Of a DNA stretch of 64,000 nucleotides, positions 11,638 to 29,577 are shown piece by piece (within the stretch, counting starts at the first letter, position 1; the number at the start of each line of letters is the position of its first letter). The position numbers and the translations under genes are program-made. This DNA comes from Sulfurimonas gotlandica GD1 (GTDB lineage: Bacteria; Campylobacterota; Campylobacteria; Campylobacterales; Sulfurimonadaceae), in contig NZ_AFRZ01000001.1 of assembly GCF_000242915.1 (NCBI RefSeq), forward strand, positions 2,542,001-2,606,000, written 5' to 3'. Under the pieces are notes generated by a model, which was given only the letters and a program-made list of their open reading frames with translations, ran no database searches and was not told where the DNA came from.

Positions 11638-13038
11638 TTAAACCTTTTCCCAAAAAGTACCTTGTGGCGTGTCCATGATGTTTACGCCAAAGGCTAATAT
11701 CTCATCACGAAGTTTGTCTGACTCTTGGAAGTTTTTCTCTTTTTTAGCTTCGTCACGTTTTACGATTAGGTCAAATATTTGCAGTTTTGTATGAGCATCT
11801 ACACCGAATTGAAAGTACTCATAGGCATTTTTACTGCCAAAGCCTAAAATCTTTTCTATGTAAGCTAAGTTTGAAATAGTCTCTCTCTTTAACTCTTTAT
11901 GTTTTCCTGCCGTGTCTAAAACTTCGTTCGTGCTTGAAATAAACGCTTCTATTAATGCAAGAGCAGAAGATACATTCATATCATCACTAAGAGCTTTTAA
12001 AAGTGATTCTTTAAACGGTGTAGCATCTGTACAATCAGCCAGTCCAAAAAGTCTCTTTTTAAGTCTGTATATCTTGTCAAGTCTCTTTTTAGAAGTCGCC
12101 AAGTCTTGGGTGTTAAAGTTGAAGTTACTTCTGTAGTGTGTGCTTAAAAGGTAGAAACGCAGAACCTCTCCATCATACTCTTTTAGTGCATCTTTTAAGA
12201 AGAAACTGTTTCCTAAACTCTTAGACATTTTCTCGCCGTCAATGTTTACAAAACCATTATGCATCCAGTAGTTTGCCAGTGCATGGTTAGTTGCACATCT
12301 AGTCTGTGCAGCTTCATTTTCATGGTGAGGAAAAAGTAGGTCAGCCCCACCACCGTGGATATCTACTGCAAACTCTGCACCCTCGTGAGCAAGATGTTTT
12401 TCTATCATCGCAGAACACTCTAGATGCCAACCGGGACGACCTTCACCAAACGGAGAATTAAAAGTGATGGTGTTATCTTTTACGCTCTTCCACAGAGCAA
12501 AGTCGGCAGGATTTCTTTTTTGCAAAGAGTTTTCAACTCTTTGCAGTTTGTCATCTTCATCTTGGACTCTTGAAGAGAGAGATAGATACTCGCCATCACT
12601 CGAAGTATCAAAGTAAATATCACCCTCAGAAGTTTTATAAGCATGTCCTGAGTCTATAAGTTTTTGGATAAGTTCGTACATTGCATCAAGAGATTCTGTA
12701 GCTTTTGGCTCGATATCTGGGCGAGATACACCGATGGCATCCATCTCTTTGTGAAATGCATCTGTATAGAAGTCTGTAATCTCTTTGATGTCTTTACCTG
12801 ATTCTGCTGCTTTTTTGATGATTTTATCATCGATGTCTGTAATGTTTCTAGCATAAGTCACATCGTAGCCGTTTGCTTTAAGCACACGTGAAAGCAGGTC
12901 AAATACTAAAGCACTCTTAGCATGACCTAGATGCGAGTCATCATAAACAGTAGGACCGCATACATACAGAGAAGCTTTTCCCTCTACAAGTGGAGTAAAC
13001 TCACGTTTTGTTTTTTGCACTGAATCGTATATATACAT
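11638..13038 (-). CDS. cysS: Cysteinyl-tRNA synthetase
   Basis: This 466-residue class I synthetase charges tRNA-Cys. The zinc ligand C27 is in YVCGPTVYDD, the HIGH motif appears as HLGH (residues 36-39), zinc-site GWHLECSAM is near 210 with HHENE near 237, and KMSKS is intact in GEKMSKSLGN. The length is typical. It is upstream of and contiguous with the methyltransferase gene. Confidence 0.97.
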   Translation of the reverse strand: MYIYDSVQKTKREFTPLVEGKASLYVCGPTVYDDSHLGHAKSALVFDLLSRVLKANGYDVTYARNITDIDDKIIKKAAESGKDIKEITDFYTDAFHKEMDAIGVSRPDIEPKATESLDAMYELIQKLIDSGHAYKTSEGDIYFDTSSDGEYLSLSSRVQDEDDKLQRVENSLQKRNPADFALWKSVKDNTITFNSPFGEGRPGWHLECSAMIEKHLAHEGAEFAVDIHGGGADLLFPHHENEAAQTRCATNHALANYWMHNGFVNIDGEKMSKSLGNSFFLKDALKEYDGEVLRFYLLSTHYRSNFNFNTQDLATSKKRLDKIYRLKKRLFGLADCTDATPFKESLLKALSDDMNVSSALALIEAFISSTNEVLDTAGKHKELKRETISNLAYIEKILGFGSKNAYEYFQFGVDAHTKLQIFDLIVKRDEAKKEKNFQESDKLRDEILAFGVNIMDTPQGTFWEKV

Positions 13039-18017: not shown

Positions 18018-18087
18018 GTCTAACGGTTGTCGTGAGCAATAATTTTCCCGTTAGTGTAAATTATTGGTCTCCTCGTATTTGTTAGAC
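18018..18087 (-). other. attC-like integron recombination site
   Basis: The outer boxes GTCTAAC (18018-18024) and GTTAGAC (18081-18087) fit the R''/R' consensus (RYYYAAC and GTTRRRY) and are exact inverted copies. Inside them lies an unpaired spacer of 5-6 bases. Then comes an imperfect second stem (CGTGAG against CTCCTCG with extra bases on one side). The innermost part is a perfect 9-bp stem, CAATAATTT (18037-18045) with AAATTATTG (18058-18066), around a 12-base loop. This order of R box, spacer, L box with extrahelical bases and terminal stem is the architecture of attC sites. It begins 6 bases past the stop codon of the 94-residue gene. Confidence 0.72.
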
Positions 18088-18397
18088 TTGTTACTACTTA
18101 AAAAATTGAATTGCTTCAATTATATTATTTATTTTTTCTTCATCTTGATTAATTGTAGCTTGATGTAATAACCCAGATAACATAGAATTTCTTGTATCTT
18201 TTGGAATTACACAAGGACTTAAAATACCTCGTGATTGTGGGTAGTCTCCCCAATGTACACCTAACGCTTTTTCTCCACCATTATATTCATTTTTATGGTC
18301 GTAATTTCCAATAATTAAAACTAAGCCATTATCATTATAAAACTCTTTTGGATTTTTCCAATATGAAATCATTTGCATTTTTACTCCTGTAGTCTAA
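18024..18397 (-). mobile_element. Single integron-type gene cassette without integrase
   Basis: On the minus strand a core GTTAGAC (18392-18398) lies just before the 94-residue gene, and the attC-like site follows the gene and ends in an identical GTTAGAC (18018-18024). The segment between the two presumed G/TT crossover points is about 374 bp: 5' leader with AGGAG, one gene, attC. That is the composition of a mobile gene cassette. No IntI-type integrase is in the window; the tyrosine recombinase at 26.6 kb is phage-like. It would therefore be a lone attC-carrying cassette. Confidence 0.62.
18094..18378 (-). CDS. Hypothetical cassette-borne protein, 94 residues
   Basis: This small soluble protein has no recognised domain. 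Visible segments are GLVLIIGNYDH near residue 20, GGEKALGVHWGDYPQSRG in the centre, LHQATINQDEEK and a helical C terminus. It has no signal peptide or membrane segment. The ATG at 18378 has an AGGAG site 6 bases upstream. Its placement between a core site and an attC-like structure is the main clue to its origin. The function is unknown, as for most cassette genes. Confidence 0.7.
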   Translation of the reverse strand: MQMISYWKNPKEFYNDNGLVLIIGNYDHKNEYNGGEKALGVHWGDYPQSRGILSPCVIPKDTRNSMLSGLLHQATINQDEEKINNIIEAIQFFK

Positions 18398-18398
18398 C

Positions 18399-18427
18399 TA
18401 TTTATTACAGTAATATAGCAATAAATA
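18399..18427. repeat. Short hairpin abutting the cassette core site
   Basis: TATTTATT (18399-18406) pairs with AATAAATA (18420-18427) across a 13-base loop, directly next to the GTCTAAC at 18392-18398. It could be a shortened or decayed attC or attI partner of the cassette, but the far R box is not conserved. The remaining stretch to 18769 is AT-rich and shows no gene. Confidence 0.35.
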
Positions 18428-18769
18428 ACTAAAGATACCCATAGAATCATACTTTTGCAACTCTTATCAAATTTAATATTTAATATTTCTAGTTATATAT
18501 AGGCACATTATGGACACAAATCTTATAAAACGTATACTGATTTAATGGCTCCGAATACTGAAAAATCTAAAATACACTGAAATGCCATGAAATAGCCACT
18601 TTAAACTCTCTCTCTTCTATCAAAGAAAGTCACTTAAAGATATTACTTTAGCTATCAAGCAGCTATAAATATCAATCATATTCTAACTGTAATAATTATA
18701 AAACATTATTATGGTATAGTACTTGTAAAATAAATAATTATACAAAAAAAGCAAAGGGTTTTCTAAATA

Positions 18770-19147
18770 ATGAGTTTCAAAATAATCACAGAATCTCCTG
18801 CATGGAAAACATTCTTCTCATCTGTTTTACCAATAATCACGGGTATATTGTCTGGAATATTTGTTATAGAGATTACAATTGACGGTGTCATAGCGTGGAG
18901 TTCATTTTTTAAAGCAACTAGCTTTTATGTACTAGTTTTTGTTGCTATATGCATGTACTTTTACAATAAGGCTATTTACTTATTTGAAAATGAAATTTCA
19001 AAATTTTCCGATGATGAATATTGTACTGCTTATATAAGAAGTAAATGTCTTCCTGAAGCAGCAGAAAAATATAAAACTTTGATACGTAATGGAAATGGTG
19101 GAGAGTTAAAACAAGCTATGGATGAAATGAAGAAGGTACTAAAATGA
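18770..19147 (+). CDS. Small two-TM membrane protein, accessory operon gene 1
   Basis: This 125-residue protein has two membrane helices (about residues 14-34 and 48-68) and a charged helical tail of about 55 residues (ENEISKFSDDEYC...). The layout resembles small 2TM effector or anchor proteins found in bacterial conflict systems, such as SLATT-type proteins, but no family is certain. An AAAGGG site lies upstream. Its TGA overlaps the next ATG by 4 bases, so it is translated together with the beta-flower gene. Confidence 0.75.
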   Translation: MSFKIITESPAWKTFFSSVLPIITGILSGIFVIEITIDGVIAWSSFFKATSFYVLVFVAICMYFYNKAIYLFENEISKFSDDEYCTAYIRSKCLPEAAEKYKTLIRNGNGGELKQAMDEMKKVLK

Positions 19148-19950
19148 AAACGTTAATGAGTCCAGAATTTAAAAACAAGTTAGCTATATTGGATCAGGCT
19201 ACTGTTATTAATATAGTTTCTTTTATAACTAAGGTAGTAGACCTTGATAAAAATGACTTGTTATCGACTGAAAATTTGAATGTTTCTGCTTTAGAGGGTG
19301 GCATATATAGCACAACTTTACCATCAGGTAGACTATTCTTTACATTAGGTGATGAAAATGATGAAGATTACATCATACTTATGGATGTTACATCTATTCA
19401 AAATAATGTAGCTGATATGAAAAATAACTATTATACTTCTAATAATCCACGTACAAATAATACGCTAAATCCAACTTTCAATAGAACAATAAATCCAACT
19501 TTCAATAGAACAATAAATCCAATTTTCAATAGAACAATAAATCCAACTTTCAATAGAACAATAAATCCAACTTTCAATAGAACAATAAATCCAATTTTCA
19601 ATAGAACAATAAATCCAACTTTCAATAGAACAATAAATCCAACTTTCAATAGAACAATAAATCCAATTTTCAATAGAACGCTCAACCCTAAATTAAATAG
19701 AAGTTATGATGGACCATTTCTATATGATATAAGTTTGGAACAGCAATCATTTATAGTAAGAGCAAATGAGCAAGTTGAACTTATTTTTACATTAAATCTA
19801 GAATTAATTGGACTTATAGTTGATGTAAATAATCAAACCAAAGTTGAGTTTGATATAAATAATCAGTTGATAGGTTATTTTGTAAAAGCAAATGAACAGG
19901 TATGGTTAAGATATTCTAAAGATAACAATTGGATAGGTTTATTAATATAA
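19144..19950 (+). CDS. Octapeptide-repeat protein with four-fold beta-flower domain
   Basis: This 268-residue protein has three parts. The N-terminal domain (1-108) includes LPSGRLFFTLGDENDEDYII, slightly reminiscent of RelE/ParE-like strands. The second part (109-188) is ten tandem octapeptides of the form NPTFNRTI. The C-terminal part (about 192-268) is four beta-hairpin repeats with the pattern GLIVDVNNQTKVEFDINNQL, which matches the four-fold beta-flower domain. There is no signal peptide. It overlaps gene 1 by 4 bases and lies 23 bases before the nuclease gene. The family match is from recognition of the repeat pattern; the molecular role is unknown. Confidence 0.8.
   Translation: MKTLMSPEFKNKLAILDQATVINIVSFITKVVDLDKNDLLSTENLNVSALEGGIYSTTLPSGRLFFTLGDENDEDYIILMDVTSIQNNVADMKNNYYTSNNPRTNNTLNPTFNRTINPTFNRTINPIFNRTINPTFNRTINPTFNRTINPIFNRTINPTFNRTINPTFNRTINPIFNRTLNPKLNRSYDGPFLYDISLEQQSFIVRANEQVELIFTLNLELIGLIVDVNNQTKVEFDINNQLIGYFVKANEQVWLRYSKDNNWIGLLI
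19468..19707 (+). repeat. 24-bp tandem repeat, 10 units, with 72-bp higher order
   Basis: Nine near-identical 24-bp units encode NPTFNRTI or NPIFNRTI, and a tenth diverged unit encodes NPKLNRSY. The third-residue pattern is T,T,I repeated three times, so the array is really three copies of a 72-bp block. This implies recent block-wise expansion and probable length variation between strains. Confidence 0.95.
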
Positions 19951-19973
19951 AATAGTTTTTATAAGGTGAATGC

Positions 19974-20462
19974 ATGATAGATGGTATTTGGGATGATGGT
20001 GAGTGGATAAGTTGGGATATTATTAATCATCAACTGTATGAAATTGAATTAAGACAACTGTATCCTAATGCGGATATCATGTTAATTAAAGTATTTGAAG
20101 AATTAGTTGAAGTCGCTAGACAGTATCATGATATCACAGGAAGATATCTTCCTGTATTTGGGGAACTTGGAGAGATATTCGCTGAAATTACATTTGGAAT
20201 AGATAGGCATAAACCAAGGGCACAAGGCTCTGATGGTCGTTTAGGGAATGATTTTATAGAAATAAAAACAATATCTCCAGAAAAAAATTCTACAAAAGTT
20301 GAAGTAAAAAGACAAGGTAATTTTAATAAGTTACTTGTAGTAAAAATTAGTGAACACTTTGAATTTGAAGCAAAAATAATAGATAGAAAAGACATGTCAA
20401 AAGGTATTGGAAAATATGCTACTGTCTCATGGTCATCTATGAAACATGTAACAAAAAATTAG
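19974..20462 (+). CDS. Predicted PD-(D/E)XK nuclease
   Basis: This 162-residue protein has the core of a restriction-endonuclease-like fold. An acidic helix comes first (VFGELGEIFAEI, E67), then GSDGRLGNDFIEIKT with D87 and the E96-x-K98 pair, followed by strands. The D...ExK arrangement after a GxD turn is typical of Mrr-like or type II nucleases. No helicase or methylase is adjacent, so a conventional restriction system is unlikely. It is third in an operon after the 2-TM and beta-flower genes. The nuclease call is inferred from motif, not from a recognised subfamily. Confidence 0.65.
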   Translation: MIDGIWDDGEWISWDIINHQLYEIELRQLYPNADIMLIKVFEELVEVARQYHDITGRYLPVFGELGEIFAEITFGIDRHKPRAQGSDGRLGNDFIEIKTISPEKNSTKVEVKRQGNFNKLLVVKISEHFEFEAKIIDRKDMSKGIGKYATVSWSSMKHVTKN

Positions 20463-20514
20463 AGCACACTAAAGTATGAAACTATTTTTAAGTTTCAAGA
20501 TATAGGAATAATAT

Positions 20515-21630
20515 TTGAATAAAATCTTAAAAATAATTATTAAACTTTTTAATGTATCACTTAGATTTATAGTTTTTCTTCCAATAATTATAATAATTTC
20601 TATTATATCTACTTCCCTGTTTAATATTTTCTTCCAAAACAAACACTATAAACTAAAAGAAGATATAAATGAAGAAGATACCAAAGAAATAAAAGATAAA
20701 TGGCTATCTTCTGCGAATAAATATAATGTTATTGAAGAATATAAAAACACATACTTAGAAACACTAGAATACTTTAGTAGATTTGAAAAAGAAGTTATTT
20801 TTGATAAAGAAAAGAATAATCCGCAATACAAAAACATTCAATACATATTTCACATAATATCTCTTGCAAAAGAAGCAATCAAACACTTAGAAGAAGTCAC
20901 AGCAGATGATAAAAAAGTTGCTTATTTTGAATCAAATAAAAATTCCTCAATAGATGATTTAATACAACATTATATAAATAAACTAGAAGCTAAAAATGAA
21001 GATAAAATTTCAACTAAAGCAGCTAGAAATGAGATACGATTACGAAAATTTATTATTAAACTAAAAAAACACAACACCTTGTTTATGAATTTTTATCTAA
21101 TGCTTTTTACAATTTATCCTATCTCTAATTTAAATATTAAAAAAGAAGATAAAGATTATATAGAAGCACTAGAAGATATATATGAATTTGTTCGTATTGG
21201 ACATGCTACAAGAAGTCAAATCCATAAAAGTGTTGCAATACAAATATATAAATTATATGAAGATAATATATCAAAAATAAACCTACCTGAATATACAACA
21301 GATACAGAATTAAAAAATCAAATTGGTAAGCTTATTGATTTCATATTTCAAACAGAAAAACCTTACAAAAATTTCAATAATATAGAGCAAGAAGGATATG
21401 TAAAAAACATTGTTTATACCTTCCCTGTATTTGAATGTGATAATTATTTATCTAAGAGGCAAGTAAGACGATTTAAGTTTTACTTTAGTACTAAAAATAG
21501 CCTTGTTCCAAAGTATATACCAAAATTTATTCGTAAAGTTGCTTTAGATAAAACATTAAAAGAACCCCTCTCCTTTTACCAGAAAAGCGTGTTTGTAACT
21601 TTATTCGGTTTATTTCGGAAAAAAATATAA
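20515..21630 (+). CDS. Membrane-anchored helical protein of unknown function
   Basis: This 371-residue protein has one or two N-terminal membrane helices (about residues 5-38) and then a long, Lys/Glu/Asn-rich, mainly alpha-helical body. No family is recognised. It starts at TTG with an AGGA seven bases upstream; no ATG gives the membrane segment. The tail FGLFRKKI is basic. It is 52 bp downstream of the nuclease gene in the same direction, with a small TGAAACT/AGTTTCA hairpin between them (20479-20499), so it may be a separate cargo gene. Confidence 0.6.
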   Translation: MNKILKIIIKLFNVSLRFIVFLPIIIIISIISTSLFNIFFQNKHYKLKEDINEEDTKEIKDKWLSSANKYNVIEEYKNTYLETLEYFSRFEKEVIFDKEKNNPQYKNIQYIFHIISLAKEAIKHLEEVTADDKKVAYFESNKNSSIDDLIQHYINKLEAKNEDKISTKAARNEIRLRKFIIKLKKHNTLFMNFYLMLFTIYPISNLNIKKEDKDYIEALEDIYEFVRIGHATRSQIHKSVAIQIYKLYEDNISKINLPEYTTDTELKNQIGKLIDFIFQTEKPYKNFNNIEQEGYVKNIVYTFPVFECDNYLSKRQVRRFKFYFSTKNSLVPKYIPKFIRKVALDKTLKEPLSFYQKSVFVTLFGLFRKKI

Positions 21631-21735
21631 ACTTCTTTTTTAACCCGTAAAATAACTCTTCACTTCTCTTTCCAACTTATGTCAATCTTCCAATATCAAA
21701 TTTGAAATTCGTTAATTCGAAACGTACTTAACTAG

Positions 21736-21750
21736 TTGAGTTTAACTCAA
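21736..21750 (+). promoter_or_regulatory. Perfect 15-bp palindrome upstream of the SSB-like gene
   Basis: TTGAGTT-T-AACTCAA is a perfect inverted repeat 15 bp before the ATG at 21766, just upstream of its AAAGG site. An AACTAGTT palindrome overlaps its left flank. Position and symmetry suggest an operator for a dimeric element regulator. The cognate regulator is unknown; the HTH protein at 26.3 kb is a candidate. Confidence 0.45.
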
Positions 21751-21765
21751 TATAAAGGCTTTATT

Positions 21766-22026
21766 ATGGCAACATATAAAAAAGCAAAACTACTGCATAT
21801 ATTTACAAGTGCAGACTATACAAATAAAGAGACACAAGAAGTGACTCTAGGTAAGGTAAAACTACAACTATTGGAAGTAATAACTTTACGCAATGGTGAG
21901 ATTAAAAACGAGTTGATAGATATCTCTATCCCAAAAGAAAAACTCAGTCTATACAAAGACAAGATTGGTTCAACGGTAGAAGTTGAAGTAGGTGTAATCG
22001 GAAAGTGTAGTTACTACGGTATCTAA
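21766..22026 (+). CDS. Small element-encoded protein, possible ssDNA-binding
   Basis: This 86-residue protein begins MATYKKAKLLHIFTSADYTN and has alternating beta-strand pattern (GKVKLQLLEVITLRNGEIKN, then VEVEVGVIGKCSYYG). Small beta-rich proteins encoded just before a Rep_trans-type initiator are often single-stranded-DNA-binding proteins in filamentous phages and rolling-circle elements (RstB-like). That role is inferred from position and size only. ATG at 21766 is chosen because it follows an AAAGG site; an upstream in-frame ATG is less well placed. Confidence 0.55.
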   Translation: MATYKKAKLLHIFTSADYTNKETQEVTLGKVKLQLLEVITLRNGEIKNELIDISIPKEKLSLYKDKIGSTVEVEVGVIGKCSYYGI

Positions 22027-22093
22027 ATAAATAACTCGTAGTGAGAGGAACTTATCATCTATTTGTGAGGCACGAACAAAAGATGAAAAGTGA

Positions 22094-22136
22094 CTCGAAC
22101 CACGAGCTAAATTTCCGAGTTCTTGGTAACACTCGG
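22094..22136. other. Hairpin cluster in the non-coding region before rep
   Basis: Two adjacent hairpins are visible. CTCG-AACCA-CGAG (22094-22106) is followed by CCGAGT (22115-22120) pairing with ACTCGG (22131-22136) around a ten-base loop. They lie in a 290-bp gene-free stretch that is richer in GC than its surroundings. Such structures upstream of a rolling-circle initiator suggest a replication origin or a structured RNA. No known RNA family was recognised. Confidence 0.4.
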
Positions 22137-22261
22137 TTCTTAACATATTTAATACTAAAAATTACTATGTTAACAATTGAAAAAACACTAAAAGATTCTC
22201 TCGGAGATGAGGACGGAAAGGAAGAACGCCTGAGTGATGACTCCCCGCCCGCAATCGTAGT

Positions 22262-22288
22262 GGGAGGTTACTTAGTAGCCTCCCTTTT
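22262..22288 (+). terminator. Strong Rho-independent terminator before rep
   Basis: GGGAGGTTACT (22262-22272) pairs along its whole length with AGTAGCCTCCC (22274-22284), with one G-U pair, and is followed by TTTT. It ends transcription from the upstream genes or acts as an attenuator for rep, which starts 28 bp later. A short frame (ATG 22168) runs through the hairpin but has no ribosome site and is not called as a gene. Confidence 0.8.
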
Positions 22289-22725
22289 AACAACTAACAT
22301 TTAAAGGTATAAAAAATGGAAAATGAAAACAACATATCCTCTAACTTACCAAATGTAATTAGTGGGATAGATACACTCTACTACTTTTATGAGTCTAACG
22401 ATTTATATGATGATTTTTTCTTAGAGATATTAGACCAGTTAGAAGATAGCAAAGGAAGATTTGATAAGCGTGAAATATCTTATTCAAATAAAGATTTAAA
22501 AGTATCTATAAACAATCAAGTTTTTGAGTTCAACTGCAAAAAACGGAGCAAATCGGACACCAATGCCGATTCAGTTCGGACACTAATGCCGTTTTAAATC
22601 GGACAGTGATGCCGGAAATGATTCGGACACTTTAGGTTAAAAAACGGCATCTAAATAATATTTAAGAAAGAGATATTTTCTAAATTTAAATACACTAATT
22701 GTAAATTACTTTACAAGGGTGTTGA

Positions 22726-24282
22726 ATGAGGATTATATCGATGAAACAAGTTCGTGATGTACTGCAACTTCATAGTGTTATGAATTTGTCGCTGCGGAGA
22801 ATACAAGGTGCTACTAATGTAGCTAAAAGTACAATATCTGATTACATCAAACGATTTAAACATTCTGGTCTAAAGATTGAGCAAATCAATATTTTAGATG
22901 ATGACTCACTAAGACTAAAATTATTTCCTGAACACTCCTCTGTTGTAGTCTCTCGTAGAGCAATGCCCGACATGAACTATCTCCATAAAGAGATGAAACT
23001 CCGCAAAAAAACTAAGGTGACACTCCAACTTCTCTGGGAAGAGTATAAAAGAGACAATCCAGATGGATATGAATATACACAGTTTCGTTTATACTACAGC
23101 AGATTTAAACAAGCGCTCAATCCCTCCATGCGTCAAACACATCTCGCAGGAGAAAAGGTCTTTGTAGATTACAGTGGTCTTACTATGCCAATTTATAATC
23201 AAAGAACTGGTGAAGTTGAAAAAGCTCAGATATTTGTAGCAGTGTTAGGTGCTAGTGGATATACATTTGTACATGCAACTCCAAGTCAAACACAAGAGGA
23301 TTTTATTTATTCTCATGTAATGTGTTATAGCTTTTTTGCTGGAGTACCAAGGGTTGTTGTACCAGACAACCTCAAATCAGCCATCATCTCCAACAATAAA
23401 AATGGAATTGTTGTAAATGAAAGTTATGCAGACTTAAATAGACACTATTCAATTGCAGTAGAACCAGCAAGACCAAGGAAACCTAAAGACAAGCCTAAAG
23501 CAGAACAAGGTGTTCAAGCGATACAGCGGTATATATTAGCAAGATTTCGTCATCACAAATTCTTTAGTGTAGATGAATTAAATGATGCTATTGCTTCCCT
23601 CTTGGATAGATACAACACTAAAATTATAAAACATCTGCAAAAAAGCCGTACTGAGCTGTTTGAAGAGATTGATAAGCCATACCTTAACCCACTACCAATG
23701 AATAGCTATGTTTATAAGCAATTTAAAATTGCTCGTGTCAATCAGGACTATCATATTACACTTCAAATGTGTAACTACTCAGTTCCATTTAAATACATCA
23801 AAGAAGAGGTTGAAATAAGATACTCAACTCAGAGTGTATATGTTTACCATAAGCACAAACTCATAGCTACACATCCAAGACTACGAAGAGTTGGCGAAAC
23901 ATCTACACTCCATGAACATATGCCAAATGATCATCAATATATAAATGAAAAGATGAATCCAGATAGACTTCGTTCATGGGCTAAAAACATTGGAGAATAT
24001 TCAAGTGTGTTTGTAGAAGACGCGTTTGACGAAGTTCAACACAATCCTCAAGCATACAGAAAAATATCTGCTGTGCTCTCATTGGCAAAACTCTACGGCA
24101 ACACAGAGTTGGAACTAGCACTTATGTACGCAACAAAAATGAGAACTATTACAACAAAGTCTATCAAGTCTATACTTGATAAAAAACTCTATCTTGCAAG
24201 AAGTGCCAATAACACAAATACTCCTAAACAATCACTCTTTGATACACACACTAATATCCGCGGTGCGGATGAATACAAATAA
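22726..24282 (+). CDS. istA: IS21-family transposase IstA
   Basis: This 518-residue protein has an N-terminal helix-turn-helix (RRIQGATNVAKSTISDYIKR, about residues 24-43) and a DDE integrase core with D148 (VFVDYSG), D214 (VVPDNLKSA) and E260 (DKPKAEQGVQ). A C-terminal beta-rich DNA-binding part follows. IstA makes the strand-transfer cuts and works with the IstB ATPase. All catalytic residues are present and the length is normal. The ATG follows an AAGGGTG site. Confidence 0.95.
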   Translation: MRIISMKQVRDVLQLHSVMNLSLRRIQGATNVAKSTISDYIKRFKHSGLKIEQINILDDDSLRLKLFPEHSSVVVSRRAMPDMNYLHKEMKLRKKTKVTLQLLWEEYKRDNPDGYEYTQFRLYYSRFKQALNPSMRQTHLAGEKVFVDYSGLTMPIYNQRTGEVEKAQIFVAVLGASGYTFVHATPSQTQEDFIYSHVMCYSFFAGVPRVVVPDNLKSAIISNNKNGIVVNESYADLNRHYSIAVEPARPRKPKDKPKAEQGVQAIQRYILARFRHHKFFSVDELNDAIASLLDRYNTKIIKHLQKSRTELFEEIDKPYLNPLPMNSYVYKQFKIARVNQDYHITLQMCNYSVPFKYIKEEVEIRYSTQSVYVYHKHKLIATHPRLRRVGETSTLHEHMPNDHQYINEKMNPDRLRSWAKNIGEYSSVFVEDAFDEVQHNPQAYRKISAVLSLAKLYGNTELELALMYATKMRTITTKSIKSILDKKLYLARSANNTNTPKQSLFDTHTNIRGADEYK

Positions 24283-24298
24283 ACAAAGGAATAACACA

Positions 24299-25057
24299 AT
24301 GGATCACACAATAATAATAAATAAACTTGCTGAGTTAAGCTACAAAGGTTTTAAAGATGCATATATGCATCAGATAGAAGATGTTAACTACAACACGCTA
24401 AGTTTCGAAGATAGACTTTATCAACTTCTTGATGCTCAGGATATATTCCTCAGAAATAAGCGCATTACGATGGCATTTAGACTTTCAAAAATAAAAGACA
24501 AGCAAGCGGCTATTGATGCTATAGATTTCTCTCCAAGAAGAAAAATAAATAAGACGCAGATACATTCGCTTGCTGCATTAAATTTTATACATGCTAAGCA
24601 AAATGTCATCATTACTGGCAAGACAGGAACAGGTAAAAGTTACATTGCTCAAGCAATGGCTAATCGCGCAATTATTGATGGATACAGAGCATATTATATA
24701 AGAACACCCACCTTGCTTGAGGAGATACGAATATCAAGAATAGATGGGACATATACAAATTTACTAAAAAAATATTCAAGATTTCAGCTTCTGATTCTTG
24801 ATGACTTTGGAGTCGCGCCAATAGTTGAAGATGACGCTACGAATCTGTTTGAAATCATAGAAGATAGAACTGAGATTAACTCTACGATTATCACTTCGCA
24901 ACTTCCAGTTAGCGAGTGGTACAACTATCTTAACAACAACACTATTGCTGACGCAATTTTAGATAGGATTGTTCACTCTTCTCACAGGGTAGAATTAAGC
25001 GGACCATCTATGCGAAAAATGAAATCTACGATAGAAAATAAGGAAATCCTAGAGTAG
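24299..25057 (+). CDS. istB: IS21-family helper ATPase IstB
   Basis: This 252-residue AAA+ protein, related to DnaC, has Walker A GKTGTGKS near residue 107 and Walker B LLILDDFGVAP near 165. IstB directs target capture and stimulates IstA. The start at ATG 24299 is chosen because of its AAAGGA site and its place 16 bases after istA; the longer frame overlaps istA. The gene is complete. Confidence 0.95.
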   Translation: MDHTIIINKLAELSYKGFKDAYMHQIEDVNYNTLSFEDRLYQLLDAQDIFLRNKRITMAFRLSKIKDKQAAIDAIDFSPRRKINKTQIHSLAALNFIHAKQNVIITGKTGTGKSYIAQAMANRAIIDGYRAYYIRTPTLLEEIRISRIDGTYTNLLKKYSRFQLLILDDFGVAPIVEDDATNLFEIIEDRTEINSTIITSQLPVSEWYNYLNNNTIADAILDRIVHSSHRVELSGPSMRKMKSTIENKEILE

Positions 25058-26271
25058 CATCCGGACACTTATGCTAAAATGTTGTTACAGAAAATATCTC
25101 TTCTTAAACTGTCCGAACTGAAACGACAACAGTGTCCGGATACTCCGTCATATGCAGTTCAACGGTAAGTCACAAGGCTTTTACTGGTTCACTCATTTAG
25201 ATAACTTTGTAACTATTGGATTTAAAGATAACTATACAAACAGAGGCTTAAATGATATACAAGTACAGTTCACAGCAGTTGGTATATATACACTAGGACT
25301 AAAAGCACTACTAAGATATGTTGATGATATATTTAAAGAAGTAACTACAGACTATAAACCTATCACTAGAGTTGATTTAAACATGTTTATACAGTCTGAT
25401 ATGTCTTGGTTAACTAAAGATATGTTTGTAAGTAGAAAACGCAAATACACTACTCATTTAAAAGAAGTTAGTTCTAAGTATAGACTTCAAACTCTCTACA
25501 TTGGTAAAGAGCCTTTTTTACTTCGTCTATATGATAAAAAAGAGGAACTAAAGAACTCTAAGAAAAGTGAACTTATGTATGAATACTTTTTAAATAATGG
25601 TTTCACTAGAGAGGATGATATGTTTAATCTAGAGTTTGAAATGCACCGTAAGTATCTAAAGACTTATAACATTGATACAGTAGAAGACTTACTAGGTCAT
25701 GCAGAGAAGCTTTTTAAAGAGTCTATGAACGCTATCAGATTAGTTGATTTATCTACCATATCAGAGAATGCTGTAAATACTATGAATAGATACAAAGCAG
25801 AGACTCATCCACTATGGCAGCACATAAGTGACTCTTACAAGCTAAAAGATTTTTTAGAAGTTGATATGCCTTTAGAGAGATTAAAGCGTAAAAACTACTC
25901 TTACACTATTGAAGAATCTATGAAAGAACATATAGCTCTAGCTAGAAAATATTATGTACATGGTGGCATAGTAGATGAACAGTTTTATGATGAGATACAA
26001 GAAGCTTTTGAAAAAAGTATAGAGCCTAAATATGATGATATTAAAAAGCCTATTAAACTACAAACAGTTTATGAAAACATAGATGAACCAATAAATCTAA
26101 AAGAGCTTGATGATATAGAACTAGAGAAGTATGTAAAAACTTTAGAGTCTTATATGACAAAGCCTGACTTAGATTTGCATGTGCTAATTAAAAAACATCA
26201 ACTGGCATTTATAGAGTTGGAACATAGGGGAAAACCTATTCAACAAGTGTTTCCTTTTTAGGTGGTGTGAT

Positions 26272-26346
26272 ATGTGTACTAAATATAGAGGACTTTATTT
26301 TTCAAATAAAGGTCTAGCAAACGATAGTGCGGTAGGTGTATTATGA
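26272..26346 (+). CDS. Possible 24-residue leader peptide before the HTH gene
   Basis: The frame MCTKYRGLYFSNKGLANDSA(VGVL) begins 10 bases after the rep stop, after a GGTGGTG sequence, and its TGA overlaps the ATG of the HTH gene. This overlap would allow translational coupling. An internal AT hairpin (TTTATTT/AAATAAA) is also encoded. It may be only a spacer between rep and the HTH gene. Confidence 0.3.
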   Translation: MCTKYRGLYFSNKGLANDSAVGVL

Positions 26347-26663
26347 ATGTTGAATTTGAAAACCTAAACCTAATAAAGCAGATGGCTTACGATATGCAAC
26401 TTCTAAAAAAGTTACTACAAGATAGCAGTTCTAAAAGATGGTTAAGTGTCAAAGAACTAGCTATTTATCTTAGTTATTCAAAGGATAGAATTTATAAAAT
26501 AAAAGATACAATTTTTATTGAGGGCATACATTTTTATAAAAAGAGTGGTAAAATACTCTTTGATAGAGTTGCAATTGATGAATGGGTTATCTCCAAGGAG
26601 AAAACAAATGAAATTAATCAATCGCAAAGGCAAGTTGTGGATAACATTTTATCATCAATCTAA
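26343..26663 (+). CDS. HTH (AlpA/MerR-like) excisionase-type protein
   Basis: This 106-residue protein has a winged HTH_17-type segment (RWLSVKELAIYLSYSKDRIY, about residues 39-58, then FYKKSGKILFDRVAIDEWV). This fold is used by AlpA regulators and excisionases to bind DNA beside tyrosine recombinases. It overlaps the integrase gene by 56 bases, and both belong to the element's integration module. It is a candidate directionality factor or regulator. Confidence 0.8.
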   Translation: MNVEFENLNLIKQMAYDMQLLKKLLQDSSSKRWLSVKELAIYLSYSKDRIYKIKDTIFIEGIHFYKKSGKILFDRVAIDEWVISKEKTNEINQSQRQVVDNILSSI

Positions 26664-27678
26664 GAGATACAGACGCTCTTTAAAACTTGATGATACAAAA
26701 GCTAACCGTAAACTAGCCGAATCAAAACTAATTCCTGAAATAGTACATAAGCTAAATCAAGATAAGTTCCTTGAAAATACTAATGTTAAAAAAGTACCAA
26801 CAGTTGATGAGTTTATGCAAATTAGCTTTGAGATACATGAGGCTTACAGAAGACCATTAAGCCAAAAAGATTATAAGTTTATCTATGAGAGACATATAAA
26901 GCCAATCTTTGGCAAAAGAATCATAGATGAGATAAAACCATCTGAAATAGCTACTTGGCAGAGTAAACTACTTAAAAAACTCTCTACTAAATCACTCACA
27001 ATGATACTAGCTGTTTTTAATGTTATGTTTAATGACGCTTTGGCTGATGAGCTTATTGCAAGAAACCCAATGAGCCTCATAAAAAAGCCTAAAAATATTT
27101 CAGTTAATGAGATACTTCCATTTAAACAAGATGAAATATTTAAGCTCTTAGGACATATCCAAGAAAGAATGAGGGCAGTATTTGCAATAGGTTTTTTTAC
27201 TGGGATGAGAACAGGCGAACTAGTAGCTTTAAAATGGAGTGATATAGACTTTGAAAATAATATCATTAAAGTAAGAAGAGCCAAAAGACAGAATGTCGAA
27301 TCTCTTCCTAAAACAAAATCAAGTATTAGGGATATTGATATTATTGATATTTTACTCCCATACTTACAAAATCATTTGAAGTTTAAACTTGATGATAGTG
27401 AGTATATGTTTAATAGTTTACATAAAAGACCTTTCACATGCTTCCATAGTATATCTAGAACTTATTGGAGACCAATATTTGAGAAAATAGATATAGCTTA
27501 TAGAAACCCTTATCAGATGAGACATACATTCGCAAGTATGATGATAAGTAATGGAGAAGATATATTATGGGTTAGTAAAATGCTAGGTCATACAAACTCT
27601 GCAATAACTCTCACTATGTATGCTAGATACATAGAAAATAAAGACAAAAAACGAGGTGCTTTTTTAATAGCTTCATAG
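26608..27678 (+). CDS. Phage-type tyrosine recombinase/integrase
   Basis: This 356-residue integrase has an arm-binding N terminus (KLINRKGKLWITFYHQSKRY), a SAM-like core-binding domain (about residues 65-165) and a catalytic domain with R201 (TGMRTGEL), a beta-hairpin Lys region (PKTKSS), R305-H306 (YQMRHTF), H328 (LGHTNS) and nucleophile Y338 (TMYARY). The first histidine of the HxxR box is replaced by Tyr (Y302), a tolerated variation. The ATG 26608 has an AAGGAG site and is preferred to the longer frame. It should mediate insertion of the surrounding element. Confidence 0.93.
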   Translation: MKLINRKGKLWITFYHQSKRYRRSLKLDDTKANRKLAESKLIPEIVHKLNQDKFLENTNVKKVPTVDEFMQISFEIHEAYRRPLSQKDYKFIYERHIKPIFGKRIIDEIKPSEIATWQSKLLKKLSTKSLTMILAVFNVMFNDALADELIARNPMSLIKKPKNISVNEILPFKQDEIFKLLGHIQERMRAVFAIGFFTGMRTGELVALKWSDIDFENNIIKVRRAKRQNVESLPKTKSSIRDIDIIDILLPYLQNHLKFKLDDSEYMFNSLHKRPFTCFHSISRTYWRPIFEKIDIAYRNPYQMRHTFASMMISNGEDILWVSKMLGHTNSAITLTMYARYIENKDKKRGAFLIAS

Positions 27679-27697
27679 TTTGTATCCTGACACAAAA

Positions 27698-27716
27698 GGG
27701 CACAAACTTGGGCACA
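27698..27716. repeat. GGGCACA direct repeats after the integrase
   Basis: GGGCACA at 27698-27704 and again at 27710-27716, 12 bases apart, lie 20 bp past the integrase stop. Short direct repeats in this place are often integrase arm-binding sites of an attachment region. No matching copy or tRNA-type core was found at the left side of the element, so the crossover point is not defined. Confidence 0.45.
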
Positions 27717-27819
27717 CTTCAAAAAGTAAGCATGGTTAAGCCCCTAAAACAAGGCTTTATACACCATTGTTCTTATTACTATTTATTCAACATCATTATA
27801 TAGATTAACCTTAAATCAA

Positions 27820-27909
27820 TTAATTAACTATCATGGTGAATGATTGTTAATTAAGAGTATTTCTATAAAAAAATTTAACCTATTATTAAAAAAATCATGA
27901 TTGTTAATT
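27820..27909. repeat. 14-bp inverted repeat and 13-bp direct repeat
   Basis: TTAATTAACTATCA (27820-27833) pairs with TGATTGTTAATTAA (27841-27854) at 13 of 14 positions across a 7-base loop. ATGATTGTTAATT occurs at 27840-27852 and again at 27897-27909. The 320-bp stretch 27679-27999 has no gene. The repeats could mark the attachment region of the element, an operator or the murJ-side boundary. Confidence 0.5.
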
Positions 27910-27999
27910 GTCCTACGGACAAATAACAGCCTCAAATGAGTGTTACATAATGATACTTAAGCCAAAGGTTGAAATATTGAAGTTAAAAAAGCTATTAAT

Positions 28000-29409
28000 T
28001 TATAAAACATAAGAACTAATAAAGTCTTTAAAAACCAAAAGCAACCCAGTAAAAACAACAGCCCCAAGCAGAAGATAAATAGTGTTTTTAGAACGAAGCA
28101 TCTCAAAGAAGTTTTTCACTCCAAAAACCTTTATAGTTAGAATAAAACTTACAAAACCACCTACTGTAGATGCAAGGGCTAGACCGCTTACTCCCATAGG
28201 AGATATTAGAGATAGTGCAAAGATTATGTATGTAGCTAGAGAGTAGGTTGCTATTTTGGCTGCTTTCATTTGCATTTCTTTAGCGTATAGCCATAGGACA
28301 AATAGTTTTTGCAGACCAAACGGAAGTAAGCCTATCATGTACATCTGTAGAACAAGAGTAGTGTTTTGAGTATCCTCAGCGTTAAAAGCACCTCTCTCAA
28401 AAAGAAGCCAAGTTATCTCACGAGATAGTACAAGTCCTCCGATGGCACTTGCAGTTAGTAAAAATGCTAAAAACCAAAATGCTTTTTGCAAAAAGAGCAG
28501 GGCTTTTTCTTCATCTTTGTTCTTTATGTATCTGGCAACTCTTGGAAAAAGAGCTATAGAAGTAGCGATGGCAAAAAGAGCAAGAGGGAGTTGGAAGATG
28601 CGGTTAGCGTAGTAAAGGTATGAGATAGAACCTGTGATGAGAAAAGAGGCTAAAAATGTATCTAAAAATGCACTTACTTGTGCAGTTGAGTTTCCCCACA
28701 TTGCAGGAAAGAATTGTCTTCTAAACTCTCTTGTATCTTTTTTGATGATTTTAGACTTTACTCTTAGGTGTCTGAATCCGCCTATTAGAAGTTTAGAGAG
28801 TCCCATTTTATATATGGCGATAACATGAACCCCAAGTTGCATAAGCCCACCGATAACTACACCCCAACTTAGGTAGTAGACTATATCTGCTTGGCTTTTG
28901 TCTTGTGATAGAAGTAGAGCAAAAATAAGCGATAAGTTTAAAAGAGCAGTTGAGAAAGCTGATGTTGCAAAGTGGTGTTTATACTGTAGCATAGTACTTA
29001 AAAATGTAACTGCAAAGATAAGTGGTAGATACCAGAAGTTTATAGCTACAAAGGGAGATGCTATCTCTATAGTCTTTTCATCAAAACCGACGGCTATAGC
29101 TTGAGTTGCTAATGCTGGTAGTAGGTTTACAAGTAGAGTGATTACGAGTATGATAGAGACGAAGACTATAAAGATATTTGCTGAGAATACACCCTTGTGT
29201 TTAGACTTGGCAAATGCCGGAATGAAAACCTGTGTAAATGCGCCTTCTGCAAAGATACGACGGAAAAGGTTTGGTAGTTTAAAAGCTATGAAAAAGATGT
29301 CACTATATATGTTTGCACCAAGCACTGATGCTGTCAGTAAATCTCTAATAAATCCTAAGATTCTTGAAAATAAAATTCCAAAACTGTTCGTGAAAATTGC
29401 TTTAAACAT
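28000..29409 (-). CDS. murJ: Lipid II flippase MurJ (MviN)
   Basis: This 469-residue membrane protein has about 14 helices and translocates lipid II to the periplasm for peptidoglycan synthesis. Family features include GFIRDLLTASVLGANIYSD near the start, FRRIFAEGAFTQVFIPAF near residue 50 and a charged central cavity. The ATG at 29409 (MFKAIFTNSF) is preferred to a TTG 45 bases upstream because it gives the usual N terminus of this family. It is a single gene, convergent with the element. Confidence 0.93.
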   Translation of the reverse strand: MFKAIFTNSFGILFSRILGFIRDLLTASVLGANIYSDIFFIAFKLPNLFRRIFAEGAFTQVFIPAFAKSKHKGVFSANIFIVFVSIILVITLLVNLLPALATQAIAVGFDEKTIEIASPFVAINFWYLPLIFAVTFLSTMLQYKHHFATSAFSTALLNLSLIFALLLSQDKSQADIVYYLSWGVVIGGLMQLGVHVIAIYKMGLSKLLIGGFRHLRVKSKIIKKDTREFRRQFFPAMWGNSTAQVSAFLDTFLASFLITGSISYLYYANRIFQLPLALFAIATSIALFPRVARYIKNKDEEKALLFLQKAFWFLAFLLTASAIGGLVLSREITWLLFERGAFNAEDTQNTTLVLQMYMIGLLPFGLQKLFVLWLYAKEMQMKAAKIATYSLATYIIFALSLISPMGVSGLALASTVGGFVSFILTIKVFGVKNFFEMLRSKNTIYLLLGAVVFTGLLLVFKDFISSYVL

Positions 29410-29577
29410 GGGCTTCTTTGTGTCTGTTTTATAGGTTTTACGAAAGTTTAACAAAACAATGTGTAAAACTATATTATTTATTATCTCTTTAAAAAGAAGT
29501 TTTGATTATAATCTTTTTATTTTAATAAAATTTAAATACAATACTCAAGCAATATTATCATCTATAAGGCAGAAAGA

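Follow-up and report, generated by a model that had tools for sequence, protein, structure and literature searches.

The window analysed here, a stretch of 64,000 nucleotides from Sulfurimonas gotlandica GD1, carries at 18.0-18.4 kb what appears to be a single integron gene cassette, which raises the question of how such a unit came to stand by itself. A sequence-only reading of the same DNA had described a lone cassette in a phylum where integrons were thought to be uncommon, and had suggested capture from another lineage or integrase-independent insertion as the cause. On the minus strand the order is GTTAGAC, leader, 94-aa ORF, GTCTAAC, an imperfect hairpin and GTTAGAC (Table 1); the 374 bp with their one ORF agree with the cassette composition given in that reading, a 94-residue gene whose leader starts at a GTTAGAC core. 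R'' and R' are complementary to each other and both fit the attC core consensus, which in the accessible part of PMC12901181 is RYYYAAC for R'' and GTTRRRY for R'. The leading GTTAGAC is the exact complement of the R'' of the cassette, as would be expected had the cassette once been a circle. The inner stem of 9 bp is imperfect and contains unpaired bases, and the DNA fold of the site is more stable than that of 200 out of 200 shuffled sequences on either strand (z -5.15; other strand z -4.14).

Table 1. Features of the cassette locus and further attC sites of the genome (positions in the window; those of the further attC refer to the whole genome)
Feature	Position	Strand	Remark
cysS, close to murJ in congeners lacking an integron at that place	11638..13038	minus	
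attC, 70 bp (R'' GTCTAAC, stem CAATAATTT/AAATTATTG, R' GTTAGAC)	18018..18087	minus	fold, covariance model, stem
Gene cassette (374 bp; starts with TTAGAC, next to the crossover G at 18398, and ends in the R' G at 18024)	18024..18397	minus	
Cassette ORF, 94 aa	18094..18378	minus	homologues elsewhere; no Pfam, NCBIfam or PADLOC family
Leading core GTTAGAC	18398-18392	minus	
10-bp core AATAAATAGT, copy on the cassette side; IntI crossover G = 18398	18397..18406	minus	
Integrative element, read as lying in attI, 9,381 bp (one core copy counted)	18407..27787	plus	two AATAAATAGT copies; comparable G122 element
Stretch close to the cassette-side end, with counterparts of similar sequence in other congeners; contains GGCTCCGAATACTG	18543..18679	plus	
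IS21-type insertion sequence genes, istA-like and istB	22726..25057	plus	IstB_IS21 2.1e-60
369-aa ORF with homologous genes in the elements of G122 and G441	25152..26261	plus	no Pfam family
Small helix-turn-helix protein	26343..26663	plus	HTH_17, below cut-off
Tyrosine integrase, end ~100 bp before the attI junction	26518..27678	plus	Phage_integrase 5.5e-22
murJ-side copy of the core AATAAATAGT; crossover GTT reads GTA	27778..27787	minus	
attI, upstream part	27778..27959	minus	aligns with the G411 attI region
Remnant of the first intI codons, abutting the murJ 3' end	27976..27998	plus	aligns with G426
murJ, gene beside the integron	28000..29454	minus	
Further attC	326924, 327669	plus	R1
Further attC	2529483, 2528917	minus	R1

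For a non-circular test the covariance model R1 was built from 44 attC of congeneric arrays beside an integron integrase, none of them from this genome (inner stem median 12 pairs vs a shuffle mean of 5.5; 28 different stem strands). R1 gave the window site a score of 68.4 bits (E 4.1e-13, 150 kb searched), so that the 70-bp attC-like site with R boxes and a 9-bp stem described in the sequence-only reading was borne out. In the scan of the region and the whole 2.95-Mb genome that this reading had proposed it was the top match; at E<=1 there were six matches, five of them at E<=2.2e-4 and the sixth at chance level (window 27453, E 0.53). Rfam gave nothing relevant for the site, the 6 matches to eukaryotic-type families all being at chance level. 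The window attC belongs to the attC family that is found beside an IntI, and judged by its sequence the unit is a genuine integron gene cassette with attC.

This attC family is at home in the genus. Both a model match and similar sites in relatives, the absence of which the sequence-only reading had named as counting against it, were found: the family occurs as arrays and as single sites in 11 of 12 congeners, which were hand-picked for assemblies of one or two contigs. A DNA search with the cassette region matched 82 of the 135 congeneric genomes, and among the matches listed most were through the attC part (~73-97% identity, often several per genome), the rest through the flank or other pieces. 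A foreign attC type was considered for the window site and rejected, the type being the genus's own. Nor are integrons uncommon in the phylum, as had been assumed: an IntI-like match at E<=1e-40 was present in 43 of 397 Campylobacterota genomes, 34 of them above the NCBIfam cut-off, and in none of 14 controls; a review names Campylobacterota among the integron-bearing phyla (PMC8618304, accessible part). At each of the 12 IntI loci displayed, the attI core between intI and the array reads AATAAATAG^TT or, at two loci, ATTAAATAG^TT. As far as these sequences tell, there are integrons in Campylobacterota with an attC and attI type of their own.

Loss of intI seems to be common in the genus, since among 32 array starts read (3 from this genome) an attI-like score >13 was found within 3 kb at 21 and intI in the fetched stretch at 5. 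At the intI-less attI loci looked at, remnants of intI comprise the first few to ~18 codons (L022:8318-8380, L091:3260-3340, window 27976-27998, L148:860-905, L092:940-1040), and deletions ending so near the start at several loci look non-random. Two further patterns were seen in these arrays. A stretch beginning TTATCCGCTCACTGCGTGA recurs directly 3' of attI or attC cores (L022:7900-8066; L066, L071, L082, L083); with their GC-rich inverted arms, the copies in L022 and L066 resemble a non-coding cassette. Several copies of a short repeat of the TTACACCCC..GTGAATCTCCAC type, perhaps insertion sequence ends, lie 3' of the array at L022:5400-6200.

The genome under study contains no intact intI above the NCBIfam cut-off or at E<=1e-40; the IntI search, likewise suggested in the sequence-only reading, returned weak matches only, the best with 60 bits vs a cut-off of 265. 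The description as a lone cassette is right for the immediate place and fails genome-wide, as four further attC were identified at two other loci. At 2529-2530 kb an intI-promoter/attI region aligns with the IntI-bearing G254 locus (score 288); the alignment reaches the first four intI codons, the remainder of intI is gone, and cassettes with two modelled attC come after the attI region. At 326 kb, 3' of gltD, there is a second intI-promoter/attI remnant (score 217; highest of 200 shuffles 42) with a mutated attI core, AATAAAGAG, GTC instead of GTT, and after the remnant follow two ORFs with one attC each. Given the attI remnants and the gene loss read at each of the three loci, this is a genome of three cassette loci with an intact intI at none.

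The neighborhood of the window cassette was compared with that of relatives, starting from murJ, which was found in 115 of the 135 genomes; 29 relatives with the best murJ matches were read. An unsplit attI follows murJ in five of them, G411, G426, G496, G404 (with intI) and G399, among them the two relatives with the most similar murJ (91% and 90%). G404 has murJ, then intI and attI, while in G399 murJ is followed by an intI remnant (~18 codons of the start), attI, attC and cysS. In 14 of the 29 cysS is within reach and signals of attI, attC and intI are absent, G437 shows weak similarity to IntI (38.5% across 70 residues), G487 an ABCF-type gene, and in 8 relatives none of the sought signals was found at murJ. 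In the window, the interval between murJ (28.0-29.5 kb) and cysS (11.6-13.0 kb) holds an integrative element, the cassette and several genes.

It is beside murJ that part of the missing attI reappears. The stretch after murJ and the G411 attI region align with a score of 150 (200 shuffles: highest 40), and the intI-start remnant aligns with G426 with a score of 64 (200 shuffles: highest 35); save for these few codons, no integron integrase is nearby, as the sequence-only reading had noted. Scored with a 24-bp attI matrix built from 13 congeneric attI, the murJ-side stretch reaches 21.6 and ranks second of 247,808 windows (124 kb of genome); the third has 13.6, and the top window with 25.7 would, by its score, be the attI of the 2530-kb locus. 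At the opposite end the position of the cassette-side AATAAATAGT coincides exactly with the crossover that R'' predicts. Its flank keeps AATAAATAG^TT and is otherwise unlike attI, which is expected of an element end and equally of an attG. As AATAAATAGT occurs twice or more in 64 kb in 22 of 100 shuffles, such repeats are not rare by chance, and the argument rests on the positions of the copies, not on their number. A DNA search of the 135 congeneric genomes found no exact element-free site in relatives.

The 9,381 bp between the two core copies have the make-up of an integrative element, with an integrase near one end and a direct-repeat att core. The G+C content is 0.31, with 0.36 and 0.33 measured in the flanks. 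Among the nine element ORFs run against Pfam, no relaxase or transfer genes were recognised; the helix-turn-helix protein is perhaps an excisionase, and a replication-like role of the 369-aa ORF is a guess. The letters GGCTCCGAATACTG near the cassette-side end are also present, by eye, in tRNA-Asn genes beside related integrases, which would fit an ancestor that targeted tRNA-Asn. A 268-aa ORF of the element (19144-19950) contains a tandem in-frame repeat of the TINPTFNR type (window 19470-19690).

Related integrases were found at E<=1e-40 in 54 of 135 congeners and at E<=1e-80 in 22 of 397 phylum genomes, this genome counted in both. The downstream side of the integrase was read at 26 of the 42 relatives' loci returned, the other 16 having an identity of 47% or less. 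In the two closest, G485 (92%) and G470 (83%), each with a single element end on the contig, the core lies 102 bp past the matched integrase and is followed by attI (scores 26.9 and 23.0). In G470 an open intI frame comes next; it is short of ~40 inner residues and altered at its end, and being defective it gives no proof that an element may arrive before intI decays. The missing residues (L178) fall where the extra domain of IntI lies. In G122 (69%, another family) the integrase ends ~97 bp before an attI-like stretch, and AATAAATAGT stands at both ends (984025, 995095) of an ~11-kb element, which carries homologues of the integrase, HTH and 369-aa genes. The attI-like score of 13.5 equals that of the best chance windows of the present genome, intI is not near, the attC profile finds no site beyond the element, and the sole lead-fitting GGATAAC does not stand out in folding, 23 of 200 shuffles being as good; taken by its sequence, the G122 integrase probably ends before an attI. 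G441 (72%; L207, L227, L228) falls within the same five-member integrase clade (support 0.995), and its target is not an attI, and not a tRNA gene either. Among 22 relatives of 54% identity or less that were read, ARAGORN placed a tRNA gene <=300 bp downstream in 19, 12 of them tRNA-Asn; the three without one in that distance are G336, G310 and G315, the last having one at 294-368. None of the 22 has an attI at the corresponding place. Taken together, we find it rather probable that this is a Campylobacterota clade of tyrosine-integrase elements specialised on integron attI, with more distant relatives using tRNA genes.

In minus-strand order the locus thus reads murJ, intI-start remnant, upstream part of attI, the 9.4-kb element, the cassette with attC, chromosome. 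The window cassette is, with high probability, the first cassette of an old, decayed chromosomal integron at murJ-cysS whose attI was split by the integrative element. A congeneric IntI would have inserted the cassette at the murJ attI, and intI would have been deleted, either before or after the arrival of the element. The element's own integrase would have recombined its attP with attI as attB, leaving the attI part and the promoter region 9.4 kb from the cassette, with the intact attI lost. A promoter region that far away should not drive the cassette any more, and loss of cassette expression and capture should follow. Relatives keep an attI or a whole integron at murJ-cysS and an attI part lies past the element, so that decay at this locus explains the isolation better than the integrase-independent insertion suggested in the sequence-only reading.

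Other histories of the locus have to be weighed against this one. The cassette could have been inserted singly, outside any integron and by an IntI acting in trans, at an attG resembling the attI core, which would make it a SALIN by off-target insertion. Such attG insertions of cassettes have reportedly been described by Loot et al. in 2024. The left flank, which retains AATAAATAG^TT and nothing more of attI, would suit this origin, and within 124 kb of this genome 11 of 4,586 GTT sites score as high, a count that includes this site and one true attI; against it, a fitting attI part ending in the same 10 bp lies at the other element end beside murJ, relatives have an attI at that locus, and the nearest integrases also stand at attI. 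An attG target would be unrelated to an integron platform, which does not agree with the attI part and the intI remnant at the same murJ locus, and we regard this origin as improbable. It is still less probable that a rearrangement or an assembly error joined the attI segment and the cassette by chance, the element being a bystander: such segments are common, with several intI-less attI loci per genome, but the assembly consists of one contig, relatives show the same order and orientation, and the same junction is found in G485 and G470. Finally, a chance attC-like hairpin beside an ordinary gene would fit the absent Rfam family match and is practically refuted by the 68.4 bits from a model blind to this genome; gene homologues that precede attC on three Aliarcobacter plasmids also speak against it, as does attC-like sequence (by eye; missed by R1) after the homologues in Shewanella and Pseudoalteromonas.

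A decayed integron at murJ-cysS would leave room for a foreign origin of its cargo. Among the 135 congeneric genomes the 94-aa protein is present in this one only; DNA matches in G427 and G484 extend ~40 bp into the end of its ORF. Homologues with 81% identity are found in a Sulfurovum MAG and with 67% in Pseudoalteromonas and Shewanella, and on plasmids with 89% in three Aliarcobacter and 39-45% in small ones of Pectobacterium and Providencia. The Aliarcobacter plasmids (L122-L124) carry a defence gene, a Shedu nuclease (PADLOC SduA 1.8e-90), followed by the 94-aa homologue, with an attC after each of both genes (R1 40-41 and 71 bits), so that the proposed search for the cassette protein in integrons was successful. 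This array is preceded by an attI-like core, TTTAATAAATAG^TTAGAC, which by eye is genus-like; the annotation of the 8.3-kb stretches contains no intI, and the attC share R'' with the window attC and differ from it in the stem. On the A. butzleri plasmid a predicted catA and the array are ~3 kb apart. At the Sulfurovum locus R1 finds no attC. As the gene is confined to one of 135 congeners and has 89% homologues on Aliarcobacter plasmids, capture from another lineage is likely for the gene itself, as the sequence-only reading had proposed; as the cause of the isolation, stray capture explains less than decay does, and the attC is of the genus type. The 94-aa protein had no match in Pfam, NCBIfam, PADLOC, phages or viral contigs. 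AlphaFold2 run on 4 sequences gave a best model with pLDDT 81 and pTM 0.73 (the other four 54-65), and a Foldseek search of the PDB gave no match at E<=0.001; the best, PipX (E 0.05, TM 0.64), is a weak lead.

Arrangements of this kind have parallels in known systems. CALIN and SALIN are attC sites without an integron integrase (PMC8618304, PMC12690207, in the accessible parts). As described there, the window locus is formally a SALIN, having one attC and no intI near; unlike a SALIN it has a fitting attI part that is recognisable 9.4 kb off. It is not a complete integron, as an intact intI is absent in cis and attI, of which a part lies at that distance, does not adjoin the first cassette. 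In the sedentary chromosomal integron at ilvD of Xanthomonas, as presented in the available text of PMC12444791, intI was inactivated repeatedly and intI-less arrays occur elsewhere in the genome. So far as that text goes, the two systems share a fixed neighbor gene, intI inactivation and extra intI-less arrays; they differ in that murJ is the neighbor here, with an attI core that reads AATAAATAG^TT and an integrative element that splits attI.

The element itself resembles tRNA-targeting elements with phage-type tyrosine integrases in its integrase near the end, short direct repeat and HTH gene, and is unlike them in that its clade stands at integron attI in most members read. Mobile DNA that homes on an integron site has precedents: IS1111-attC elements target attC. 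Group IIC-attC introns have the same target according to the accessible part of PMC8876359. From what these sources contain, the enzymes are different and the target there is attC, whereas here it would be attI. In the literature searched, most subscription journals being outside its reach, we met no element inserted in attI; the portion of PMC9345347 at hand names attI only as the destination of cassettes.

An odd single cassette thus becomes a readable history, with an integron at murJ, intI lost and attI occupied, and elements come into view that would have the integron recombination site as their home. If the specialisation on attI is true, the element would be a taker-over of integron platforms, and its insertion would part the cassettes from their promoter region and from an intact attI. 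Cassettes might still enter next to the element, as its cassette-side end keeps AATAAATAG^TT. Were attI regularly targeted, elements of this kind could silence cassette arrays or open them again, and the genus, with its many arrays lacking intI, would offer a test bed for integron decay.
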